Shown one piece after another: positions 20,050 to 27,000 of a stretch of DNA of 64,000 bases. Under the pieces are notes generated by a model. That model was not told the DNA's origin. It searched no databases and saw only the letters and a list, made by a program, of their open reading frames with translations. Made by a program: the position numbers and the translations under genes. Location: positions 12,556,501 through 12,620,500 of the forward strand of contig CM049418.1 of NCBI GenBank assembly GCA_026929865.2, given 5' to 3'. Every line of letters begins with the position of its first letter. Positions within the stretch are counted from its first letter, which is position 1. This DNA is from Hyperoplus lanceolatus. Lineage: Eukaryota; Chordata; Actinopteri; Uranoscopiformes; Ammodytidae.

Positions 20050-20459
20050 GTGACACAGTCTGTTCGAGTGTCTAGTTTGATATAGTATGTCTTAATCCAA
20101 TCTAGTTGTGCCATGGAAACAACAGATGGACCAAGCCTTATCCTGCATCCTGCTCCTGCTGAGCTTGTGTGCAACTTCTGGCAAGTATGTCCTCATCCAG
20201 GACAGGATGAACCGGTACGAAGCCCTGAAGAACTGTCGGCTTTTCTACACAGACTTGGCTCCAATCAGTAATGAACACGATCTAGGGCTACTTTGGAATG
20301 TTCATCAAGATAACCGAGGTTACTTCTGGATAGGACTGGAAAAGAAAGCCACCGACCCTGAGAAATGGACGTGGTCGGGGAAGTGCACACATTTTTCTGG
20401 GAAGCGGGTCAGCCAAACAACCGACCATTAGAAAACTATGGCCTAGTTCAAAACAATAA

Positions 20460-20821
20460 TAATAATAATAATAATTGATAGGTTTTATATAGCGCTATAT
20501 TGCCTTGGCACTCAAAGGCGCTTTACAGGGTTCCTGGTTCAATTTGTTCACACACAGTCATACCGGTGGTGGTAAACTACGAGAGTAGCCACAGCTGCCC
20601 TGGGGCAGACTGACGGAAGTGTGGCTGCCATTCAGCGCCAACGGCCCCTCCGACCACCTCCTCAGACATACAGCAGTCATACACATTCACACAAGGCAAG
20701 GTGGGTGAAGTGTCTTGCCCAAGGACACAACAACCATGACACAGGTGGCCGGGCGGGGATCAAACCGCCAACCCTTGGATCGTTGGCCAACCCCCTTAAC
20801 CACCTGAGCCACAGTCGCCCC
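20460..20821 (-). mobile_element. tRNA-derived SINE inserted in CTLD pseudogene
   Basis: Minus-strand head GGGCGACTGTGGCTCAGGTG with A-box-like TGGCTCAGGTGG and B-box-like GGTTTGATCCC. The body contains CCTTGGGCAAGACACTTC, and the tail region contains GCGCTATATAAAACC before an (ATT)n end. AAACAATAA at 20451-20459 and AAACAACAA at 20822-20830 are an 8-of-9 target duplication. It shares its head and central part with the SINEs at 48944 and 56466 but not their 3' part. Confidence 0.88.
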
Positions 20822-21304
20822 AAACAACAAGTGGCACGGTGCAAAATATCCCCATATTGTACCCGTCCTTCGCTACAGCGCAGTGGTGGTGAGGGAGAGA
20901 AAGACTTGGGAGGAAGCGTTGGACTACTGCAGGGGTGGCCAACCTGCGGCTCGCGAGCCGCATGCGGCTCTTTGCCTTGCTTCGTGCGGCTCTTCAGTTA
21001 ATATAAAATTTTGTGATTATAATTATTTTTTTTTTTTCTATACTTTTGTGTGTGGGCCTATGTGTGTGCATGTTCGCAAACGTTTCATGCGGCTCTTACG
21101 TTCGTTTTACATGTTGTTTATCATTTAATTTTTTATTTTGTTAATGTGTATGTGTATGCCTGTTCGCAAATGTTTAATTGAGGACGCAACATAACGTTCG
21201 CAAACGTTTGGTGCGGACGCAACCTAAAACTGCCCGCTCAGCTTGGAGGGAGATTTTCCGTGAGTAAACAATTTGTGTCAAGTTCGCTCCGAAACAGAGT
21301 GGCA

Positions 21305-21422
21305 GAGTTTATATTTTTTGTTGAACGTTATACCAAGCCATTCTGCCTTATATGCCAGGCGTCATTAGCGCATTTCAAGGCTTCAAATCATCAGCGCCAC
21401 TTCAGCTCACTCCATGCTAAAA
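21305..21422 (+). pseudogene. BED zinc-finger exon fragment of hAT transposase
   Basis: The frame from 21305 reads EFIFFVERYTKPFCLICQAS and continues to SSLHAK. The pattern is Cys-x2-Cys (codons at 21344 and 21353) with His at 21398 and 21413, i.e. C-x2-C-x14-H-x4-H, typical of the BED finger at the N terminus of hAT transposases and domesticated ZBED-like proteins. AAAA|GTAAGT at 21423 is a strong splice-donor match, so this looks like a 5' coding exon. Everything downstream has been lost or replaced by other insertions. Confidence 0.75.
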
Positions 21423-21602
21423 GTAAGTCCCACTAAGCAACATGCATAGTAAGAGAAAAACGCTATTGTAAATTGTTATATTTTTGTTTGTGGACTTGGT
21501 TGAACTGAGAGTTTGCGTGTGAGGCAGTGCACACAATGTTCATTGTTGAAAATGACTGGCCTGTCGTCTTAGTACTGTAGGAGTCCAGTTCTGTCATTAT
21601 CA

Positions 21603-23307: not shown

Positions 23308-23338
23308 ACATTTACAGTCAATCTGACTGAGCATAGGT

Positions 23339-23437
23339 CTGTGTGTGTGTGTGTGTGTGTGTGTGTGTGTGTGTGTGTGTGTGTGTGTGTGTGTGTGTGT
23401 TTGTGTGTGTGTGTGTGTGTGTGTGTGTGTGTGTGTT
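23339..23437. repeat. (TG)n microsatellite
   Basis: About 100 bp of TG with one TTG interruption near 23400. Lies within the right part of the outer hAT element. Confidence 0.97.
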
Positions 23438-23945
23438 TGGGAGTATGAGGAAGGGATGGGGGGATGTTCATGTGTACCCGTGTGTACGATGTGGCTCTTT
23501 GCAGTAACACAGTAAAAATTGTGGCTCTTAGTCTCTGACTGGTTGGCCACCCCTGGACTACTGCATGAAGCACCACAGAGACTTGGCCAGTGTGGCTTCG
23601 GATACGGAGATGTCACTGATCCGGACAGAGCTAGGCAAGAACCAGAGCACGGAGCACGTCTGGATGGGTTTGCGTTTCCTGGCCGACCGCTGGCTGTGGG
23701 TGGACGGCCAGCCGAAGCTGAGGTGTGTGTCCCTGAAAGTTATGCAGAGTCACAACGCTACACTGGACGCCAATGCATTTGCAGTATATTGCAGTATATA
23801 ATAAACTGAATCTAAATGAAGTACAAGGAAGTGTCATTGTGACTGTGAAGAGAGACTATTTTATTTGCTACAGAGAGTTTACCTATAATTTATTTGAATT
23901 AATAGATAGTCGGCTGGTTTGTGATAATTATGTTGAAGTATTTCA

Positions 23946-24061
23946 TTCAAGGTTCCACCTGTCACAGACCACAGAGACTGACACAGTGAAGCAGATGGTT
24001 AATTGGATCGAACTCCTTGCTCTGTTGAGGCATTTGCACCTTGCTCTGTCTTGGGGTAAAG
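23946..24061 (+). repeat. Dispersed 114-bp segment, copy 2
   Basis: Partner of 16430-16543, same orientation, 7.5 kb downstream. An open frame crosses it and ends at 24066, but I recognise no domain in that part. Here the sequence continues beyond the shared segment as ACTAGCAAAG, so this may be the original context. Confidence 0.9.
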
Positions 24062-27000
24062 ACTAGCAAAGAAAGACAATGCTGAAAGATGCTACAACTT
24101 ACATACGGTATATGGCTGTGACACAGATGCTGAGCTTAGAATATCAAAGTATTTGCAACAATGTGTGTTGTTGCTCAACACTGTCTTGAAATAAACAGCC
24201 CTAAGCAACCTTTCTATTGCCATATGTATCATTCCTCGGGAAGGTAGCCTTGGATTAGGTCTATCTGGAGGTCATGTTGTTTTAGACTGTATTTTTTTCC
24301 CATCTTCGGGATATTTTGAACCTTGGCACTGTGTTTTTTCGCTGAAAGTTGCTGATTGTTCCTTGTACAGGGTCATGGAGGGAAATCACACTAGAAGCGG
24401 AATTACATTATAGCTTATTTGGAGGCCACAAGGTTTCATGGGAGCCATCCATCAAATGTTTGAGTTGTTTTTGGGGCCCATAAGGAGGCGATTCTGCAAA
24501 CACTGCATATAGTCTCAGGTAGGTGCTGCTGAGCAAATCAAGTCAAGAGCACAGAGGCTCACCTCTTTGCACACGGACTTGGCAACCAGGCCAGGCCGAA
24601 AGTTAACAGAAACCTGTGACCTGTGATTGCAATGGCAGATTTGGAGACGTAGCAAAACACTATGCATATTAATGTATTGGATGACCCAGGCTATCAAAGT
24701 GTTTTGCATATATTTGTTTTTATTGTATTATTATGATTAGCAAACACACAAAATCAATTATTGTAAAAGCTAACGTAGAGCCTAATACATTGCTGAAAAC
24801 AAAAGTGTTCCAAAATCCATACCATAATTGACAAGAAATATTGTAAACACGTTTTTTAATTTTTTTCAATGTGGGTAATTTAGTAGGAAGAACTTTAGGA
24901 AGAACTTAACTGTGTTTCAGGAGGACATTTTGAACCTCTCGCCTCAACGAGAAAAATCCGGTTTTACTGTCTAATGTTTCTTGTCAACACATCCCATTAA
25001 AAAAATGACAATGAATTGATCCAACTAACACGTATTGTCGGTGTAGACAATGATTGCTTGTGCCTCAGAGCTTCGTATTGACACAAATTAATAAAAAGCA
25101 AATGAATGAAAAGAAGTCTGAAGGTAATAAGCATTGCACTGACTGGTGTATTATTTGCGCCACAACCGCCTCAACAACAGACTTAATGTCATATCTAACT
25201 CCATCACCAGCTTCCAATAACAGACATCCTTCACTTGCTGCTTGACTATAATCACGCAGACGTCTTGGCATATGTTCGCTGATTTAATTTGCATGGCTAA
25301 TGTATCGCACAACCATTTTTCCTCTTTAAGATTAATGAAGACAGACTGTCAGCGAGTCATAACAGGGAAACAAACAGCGTTGTGTGTACTGAGGTGCTTA
25401 TTAATAGGCCATGTCCTTGGTTGCTCTCGGCAGCAGTAGACTCGGGGCTGCAGTCAACCGGTCGTTTGTGTGTTGCTGCATGATACATGACGCAGGAATG
25501 GGCAGCATTTCAAACTGGACTTTTTTATGCCCTTTTGACGGTTTTACATCACGTCCGGGGGATGCGAGGCGCCAGTTAGCACATTTACAACTATTATCCC
25601 CTTCATCTCAATAAAAGTTTCAATTACGGGGACAGAGATTGGAGCAGATAAATGGGCCGTGGTGCAGTGAAATACTGTACGCTCATATTATATCAAAGGG
25701 GGAAAGAGAGGCAGAGGGGCGCAAAGCAGGGGGTGAGGTGATTCACGTGCAATGAGGCTGCAATTCATGACTAAAAGTTGGATGTGGTCATTAGGGAAAA
25801 AATCTATGTAGGCAATGATGCGCAGATGCATTCACAAACACACGCATTACAACATGTGTGTATGAGCCTGGAACACTAGTGGGTTTAAGCTGAATGTGGT
25901 AATGAAAGCCAATGTGAATGATCTGGAACAGAAGCGCTTATGATGCACGAGAATTTGTCTGATGAATTTGAAGCAATCAAGGGTCGTGTGATAGGCCATC
26001 TTGTAAATAAGTTCAAGAAAATGCATGGAGAAGTGCCCGCATATAAGTGTGCATCAGTGTTGGCTGAAAGCGATACAAAGAGTGGTGTATATTTTTTATT
26101 ACTGTGTCATTTACTTTGGGATATCATTGAAACTATGAGAATGCGATAGGGGAACATAAAAGGAACTGCTGAATGTTGATTATGGTTCTTAGTCCAAGGT
26201 AAAAGAGAGATACATTGTTGATACATTTTTTAACACATATCGGTTATCAAAACACATACATTCATGCAAATGCAATGCCTATACGTACAAAGATTAGACT
26301 GTCCCTGCGTTCCTAATTACTTTCTTTTTCTTTTTACTACAGTACATACTAAAGTACACAAGAGTATTAGGACCATGGGAGAGAAAAAAAATCAGATAAG
26401 GAAGATTTATTTTTTAATTTTGTTGAGAAATGTTGAGAACAAAGATGAATACTGCTAAATGCTATTGTAGTTAGTGGGGCATCTAGATAGTTTTGGCATA
26501 CTGCAATTGACATGCATGTTTTGGGACATCCTTATTCTTTTTCTGGCATACTAAATAGTATGAAAGTATGGGAATTGGAATGCAGGATGAGTCTGGAAAC
26601 ATTTCCTTGTTGTTGTTCAACTTGGAAAATGGATACATGGAAGAAGAGGAGGAGTTAGCCAACAATACAACTTGAATAACTTTGACAAATAGCTGTTGTA
26701 GTGCAGCTAACGTTAGACTTTACCTCTTAATGTAGAAAAGGTGAAAGCTATTCCAGGCGCATGGAAAGTGTTTCATTGAGCCCAACACAACCATGTCGGA
26801 AACATGTTGAGGCCCGACTAAAATGTCTCCCTGCCTCCTTCATCTTGTCGGAAATTTAGGACCATAAACAGGAGAAAACTGACAAACAGACAACTGATGA
26901 TAAGAAATGATTTGGTCATCCAGTTAAAATTAAGAAAAACAGACTGCTCCTGTTGTAAACACCTGAATATTTAATGAATTCTCAAAGGACCTGTTTGTGA

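Follow-up and report, generated by a model that had tools for sequence, protein, structure and literature searches.

Proteins with two C-type lectin-like domains (CTLDs) have been described in the fishes Fugu and zebrafish (PMC514892; mentioned in PMC3269628), V-type short interspersed elements (V-SINEs) are absent from amniotes (PMC6887750), and the ordering of events by nested insertion is established in TinT (PMC3014933; compare the interruption analysis of PMC2517846). We describe a locus in a 64,000-nucleotide stretch of Hyperoplus lanceolatus DNA (contig CM049418.1, positions 12,556,501 to 12,620,500; hereafter the window), in which the remnant of a lectin gene with two domains, CTLD1 and CTLD2, is interrupted by a SINE and by an outer hAT element, hAT1, which holds two guests, hAT2 and hAT3. 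The remnant is very probably the pseudogene of a secreted two-CTLD lectin that underwent neutral decay and received nested insertions, a reading that covers both a native gene and a retrocopy and thus overlaps the retrocopy and intact-gene accounts discussed below. In these terms it is an ordinary nested-transposon pseudogene locus.

The remnant resembles the Fugu group F1 dual-CTLD proteins (PMC514892), which are soluble and have two CTLDs, in combining a signal-peptide-like start with two CTLDs; however, the present copy is broken, and the likeness drawn here is one of domain layout as described in that source. Like other hAT DNA transposons (PMC4890040), all three elements carry 8-bp target-site duplications (TSDs) and terminal inverted repeats (TIRs), and hAT1 also has a repeated subterminal motif, but no full transposase is present here and hAT1 retains a zinc-finger remnant alone. 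The lectin SINE may share with V-SINEs (PMC6887750) its putative tRNA-like boxes and its core, which recurs in two other window copies; its tail differs from those of the other two. As in TinT (PMC3014933) and interruption analysis (PMC2517846), use is made of elements interrupting elements, by which TinT orders events; those studies draw on very many genome-wide cases, whereas a single locus gives one ordering. No comparable locus appeared among the matches listed in the literature on CTLD pseudogenes and on nested hAT/SINE teleost pseudogenes, as judged from titles and abstract openings, and we do not claim its absence from print.

Domains and reading frame of the lectin remnant

Both outer parts of the remnant match the Lectin_C profile of Pfam (PF00059; curated cut-off 22.6 bits), positions 20126-20428 with 25.6 bits and positions 23556-23792 with 23.1 bits, barely above the cut-off, each match being partial (profile positions 2-59 and 11-64 of 107). 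Against PDB sequences, 20126-20395 gave eight distinct sequences at E<=0.01, the best being L-selectin (3.9e-5), and 23553-23780, whose first codon still belongs to hAT1, gave 28 matches at E<=0.1. The top row of the latter, PLA2 receptor at 4.1e-7, is a sum over repeated domains with a best single domain of 0.26, and the best row in which one stretch passes alone is KLRF1 (E 0.0014). These matches confirm the two-CTLD lectin gene remnant proposed in the initial annotation. The signal peptide at its start is putative, judged by eye.

The reading frame of the remnant is broken. Frame 1 has no stop in 20126..20379, where the other two forward frames have five and four, and a frameshift near 20375-20380, upstream of the SINE, carries the rest of CTLD1 into another frame. 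No complete CTLD was found in one frame, with CTLD1 shifting frame and the end of CTLD2 (23727-23880) holding three stops in the lectin frame. Outside that end, the lectin frames are free of stops in 20126-20379, 20380-20459, 20823-20929 and 23556-23726, about 202 codons together, but the openness of 20823-20929 and 23556-23726 is weak evidence because one other forward frame is also open there. One well-supported and one tentative frameshift were counted, both placed by eye; the last motif and the deletion in 23727..23880, where the tentative frameshift lies, were likewise assigned by eye. By eye, we take the FWEAGQPNN-type motif ahead of the SINE to be part of the domain.

No lectin sequence was found 3' of 23880, and an open frame at 23737-24063 has no Pfam match. 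No second lectin copy was seen within the window: tblastn (E<=1, two framed pieces) gave one other match, at E 0.15, and the only blastn match (E<=0.01) of the middle lectin stretch covers 31 bases at 24308-24338 (83.9% identity, E 0.005) and was taken as chance. Neither a piece of the lectin nor a lectin motif in back-translation had matches in virus contigs, and a lectin motif had none in prokaryote genome contigs, results that are uninformative for a fish. A 120-bp repeat lies just 3' of the remnant at 23942-24061 and recurs at 16426-16543 with 95.8% identity; the flanks of the two copies are unlike by eye, and this short repeat looks young. Shortly upstream of the lectin start, positions 20004-20049 form an inverted repeat whose 16-bp arms match perfectly around a loop of 14 bases.

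An outer hAT element with two guests

hAT1, hAT2 and hAT3 were recovered by a scripted scan of the 64-kb window for hAT-like end motifs with identical 8-mer flanks placed 80-5000 bases apart. Among four candidates, the three with TIRs matching at no fewer than 9 of 15 positions are exactly these elements, and the fourth (31900-36645) reaches 8/15; 20 mononucleotide shuffles gave seven candidates in total, none with TIR>=9/15. The end motifs were picked after the elements were known, and the scan therefore controls for chance and is not a blind discovery. It bears out the initial annotation in its coordinates and in its account of a hAT element with a perfect 8-bp TSD that carries two further hAT elements with perfect TSDs, all three pairs being 8/8. 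The subterminal motif GYGGCTCTT occurs five times in the window, every time within hAT1 (three at the left end, two at the right), whereas 100 shuffles gave 0.57 occurrences on average and never more than 4; since it is confined to the two ends of hAT1, hAT1 is one element holding both hAT2 and hAT3. By arithmetic, hAT1 without its guests and their extra TSDs measures about 930 bp. A long GT microsatellite (23338-23440) lies inside the right part of hAT1.

The coding content of the three elements is slight. A zinc-finger match in hAT1 (PF18658) has E 3.2e-5 and 24.0 bits, below the cut-off of 27.3 (23.8 bits with the longer open reading frame), and the frames of hAT2 and hAT3 that were scanned gave no Pfam match above cut-off. 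Weak Pfam rows to Inos-1-P_synth, Tegument_dsDNA, UL20, DUF5083 and DUF5547 in hAT frames were below cut-off and were taken as chance. A search for other hAT copies in the window gave a single match of 24 bases for hAT2 (29295-29318), taken as chance, and otherwise only a similarity of low complexity linking portions of hAT1 and hAT3. The end of hAT1 had no match in virus contigs, which is uninformative for a fish.

A V-SINE-like element in CTLD1

The element at 20460-20821, on the minus strand, resembles a V-SINE. Head and core together (20683-20820) are 88% identical to 56608-56745 and 80% identical to 49065-49195, and the core is common to three SINE copies in the window. The name V-SINE presumes that this is the published V core. 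The putative A box and B box have one mismatch each to the consensus sequences; four such box pairs occur in the window, against a mean of 0.16 and a maximum of 2 in 50 mononucleotide shuffles (one strand, doubled). Neither Rfam nor ARAGORN called a tRNA over the SINE; the single Rfam row there, to CrcZ (E 1.1), was set aside as chance. The SINE core had no matches in virus contigs and prokaryote genome contigs, again uninformative for a fish.

The 9-bp TSD with eight matches given in the initial annotation is present, but it is weak, being of low complexity. Its last three bases are indistinguishable from the (TAA)n tail, and by inspection the empty site is identical for a 6- or a 9-base TSD. 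The two other SINE copies lie on the minus strand at 48961-49215 and 56481-56760, with the same core and a tail unlike that of the lectin SINE. Further A-box/B-box pairs at 62244 (+) and 12476 (-), both with 53-base spacing, possibly mark tRNA-derived elements.

Order, age and reading frame across the insertions

hAT1 inserted before hAT2 and hAT3 because both lie inside it. hAT2 and hAT3 stand side by side, neither interrupting the other, and the SINE and hAT1 are 108 bases apart, again without interruption, so that only two of the six element pairs are ordered. The statement that the order of events can be read from the sequence thus stands for hAT1 and its guests, and is unsupported for the SINE versus hAT1 and for hAT2 versus hAT3. 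Nor are the insertions dated, as had been proposed: the three hAT TSD pairs are identical at 24/24 sites, which bounds the divergence between copies at <11.7% (95%), too loosely for any ages to be drawn from them.

When the flanks are joined with hAT1 and one TSD skipped, the lectin reading is continuous, and at the SINE, coordinate arithmetic shows that the corresponding bases of the two TSD copies, 20452 and 20823, each start a codon. The lectin frame therefore does resume once both elements with one TSD each are disregarded, as first described. However, leaving out an insertion together with one TSD copy necessarily recreates the site as it was before the insertion. Continuity therefore excludes only frameshifts in the immediate flanks and is no proof of a live gene or of acting selection at landing. 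The frameshift-free block around both junctions spans 342 of 750 host bp, and random frameshifts would miss it with a chance of 0.54 for one, 0.30 for two and 0.16 for three. The conclusion that the host was still frame-conserved when both elements landed is thus not supported; the CTLD1 frameshift lies upstream and could be older than either insertion.

Features of the locus and of the remaining window

Coordinates of the lectin remnant and its insertions are collected in Table 1. Elsewhere in the window, two overlapping open frames on the minus strand (4787-5879), one of them with an RVT_1 match of 66.2 bits, probably belong to a broken element of the long interspersed (LINE-like) type, and a minus-strand open frame at 3753-4040, with HTH_38 just at cut-off and a Sleeping Beauty HTH below it, is perhaps a Tc1-like remnant. 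Together with the V-SINE-like copies, the reverse transcriptase and helix-turn-helix fragments would mark the window as vertebrate, most likely fish, DNA.

Table 1. Parts of the lectin remnant, inserted elements and target-site duplications, in window coordinates.
Feature	Position	Strand	Support
Lectin remnant: ATG, signal-peptide-like hydrophobic start, first part of CTLD1	20126..20379	+	frame 1
Remainder of CTLD1 before SINE	20380..20450	+	other frame; FWEAGQPNN-type motif in shifted frame
Left TSD of SINE, AAACAATAA	20451..20459	+	8/9 match to right copy; low complexity
V-SINE-type retroposon running from a tRNA-like head (20821) to a (TAA)n tail (20460)	20460..20821	-	
Right TSD of SINE, AAACAACAA	20822..20830	+	8/9 versus left copy
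Lectin remnant: CTLD1 end, linker, CTLD2 start	20831..20921	+	open in lectin frame, also in one other
Left TSD of hAT1, GACTACTG (host codons)	20922..20929	+	8/8
Outer element hAT1, 2626 bp with both guests counted	20930..23555	.	TIR 15/15, TSD 8/8
Zinc-finger exon remnant in hAT1	21257..21424	+	PF18658 Spin-doc zinc-finger
TSD of hAT2, CATTATCA	left 21595..21602, right 22567-22574	+	8/8
hAT2, guest in hAT1, 964 bp	21603..22566	.	TIR 11/15, TSD 8/8
TSD of hAT3, ACATTTAC	left 22586..22593, right 23308-23315	+	8/8
hAT3, guest in hAT1, 714 bp	22594..23307	.	TIR 12/15, TSD 8/8
Right TSD of hAT1, GACTACTG	23556..23563	+	8/8
CTLD2 remnant	23564..23726	+	Lectin_C 23.1 bits; PDB C-type lectin matches
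Degraded CTLD2 end	23727..23880	+	three in-frame stops; probable internal deletion, tentative further frameshift

Discussion

The favoured history is one of ordinary neutral decay of the gene for a secreted two-CTLD lectin. Among its steps, CTLD1 would have suffered a frameshift, a reverse-oriented copy of a V-SINE-type element would have entered CTLD1 at its end, hAT1 would have inserted by cut-and-paste where CTLD2 starts, and the C-terminal end would have acquired stops and, probably, a deletion. Once in place, hAT1 would itself have received two smaller hAT elements, 27 bp apart, in which no transposase is recognisable. We infer the insertion mechanisms from TSD length and element type, and secretion and neutrality are inferred as well. 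The placement of hAT1 before its guests, the only order fixed, does not determine which lesion killed the gene.

Several observations weigh against this history. The CTLD2 match exceeds the Lectin_C cut-off by only 0.5 bits. When the host parts were compared with CTLDs through Pfam and PDB sequences, a check suggested at the outset, the outer pieces were significant and the two middle pieces were not when taken alone: 20380-20457 and 20823-20921 each matched no Pfam family, the former had a single, non-lectin PDB row (E 1.2) and the latter none. They are placed in the lectin because the frame is continuous. The SINE TSD pattern AAACAAYAA has four matches in the window against 4.77 expected. 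A hAT transposase gene (~600-800 amino acids) is lacking, as none of the 31 listed frames of at least 45 amino acids exceeds 144 amino acids, and Pfam searches of 11 of these 31 found no transposase catalytic part, only the sub-threshold zinc finger in hAT1.

A narrower account, which is doubtful, holds that the remnant stems from a retrocopy that lacked introns and never worked, and not from a decayed native gene. From the signal-peptide-like start through both CTLDs no intron interrupts the sequence, and the remnant shows none of the introns described for Fugu AFP-like (antifreeze protein-like) CTLD genes, which lie upstream of C1, behind WIGL and in the stretch from C2 to C3 (PMC514892); that comparison, however, is with AFP-like genes rather than with fish dual-CTLD genes. 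AATAAA occurs at 23800 and again at 24190, but the former sits within the degraded CTLD2 end, no A run of at least 6 was found in 23861-24600, and between 19900-20126 and 23870-24400 there is no direct repeat of at least 10 bases, the longest being two of 9.

It is unlikely that the lectin was intact and under selection when the SINE and hAT1 landed and that one of them killed it. The stop-free codons outside the degraded end and the frame that holds over both junctions agree with such a course, but a young pseudogene would be equally open, the junction block escapes two random frameshifts with the probability given above, and the CTLD1 frameshift lies upstream of the SINE. A further reading, in which a once-working intronless retrogene for a secreted two-CTLD lectin lost its function to the SINE or to hAT1 and the locus then took in further hAT elements, seems quite improbable. 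That the insertions are intronic in a living gene is scarcely credible, since nothing beyond the open host pieces speaks for it, and both TSD pairs lie inside CTLD-coding parts and the host parts carry a frameshift and stops.

As a single locus, this pseudogene is of little weight, but it illustrates cleanly how insertions come to lie within insertions while their target sites stay legible. Its four elements, scored as present or absent, could be used as a set of markers across related species.

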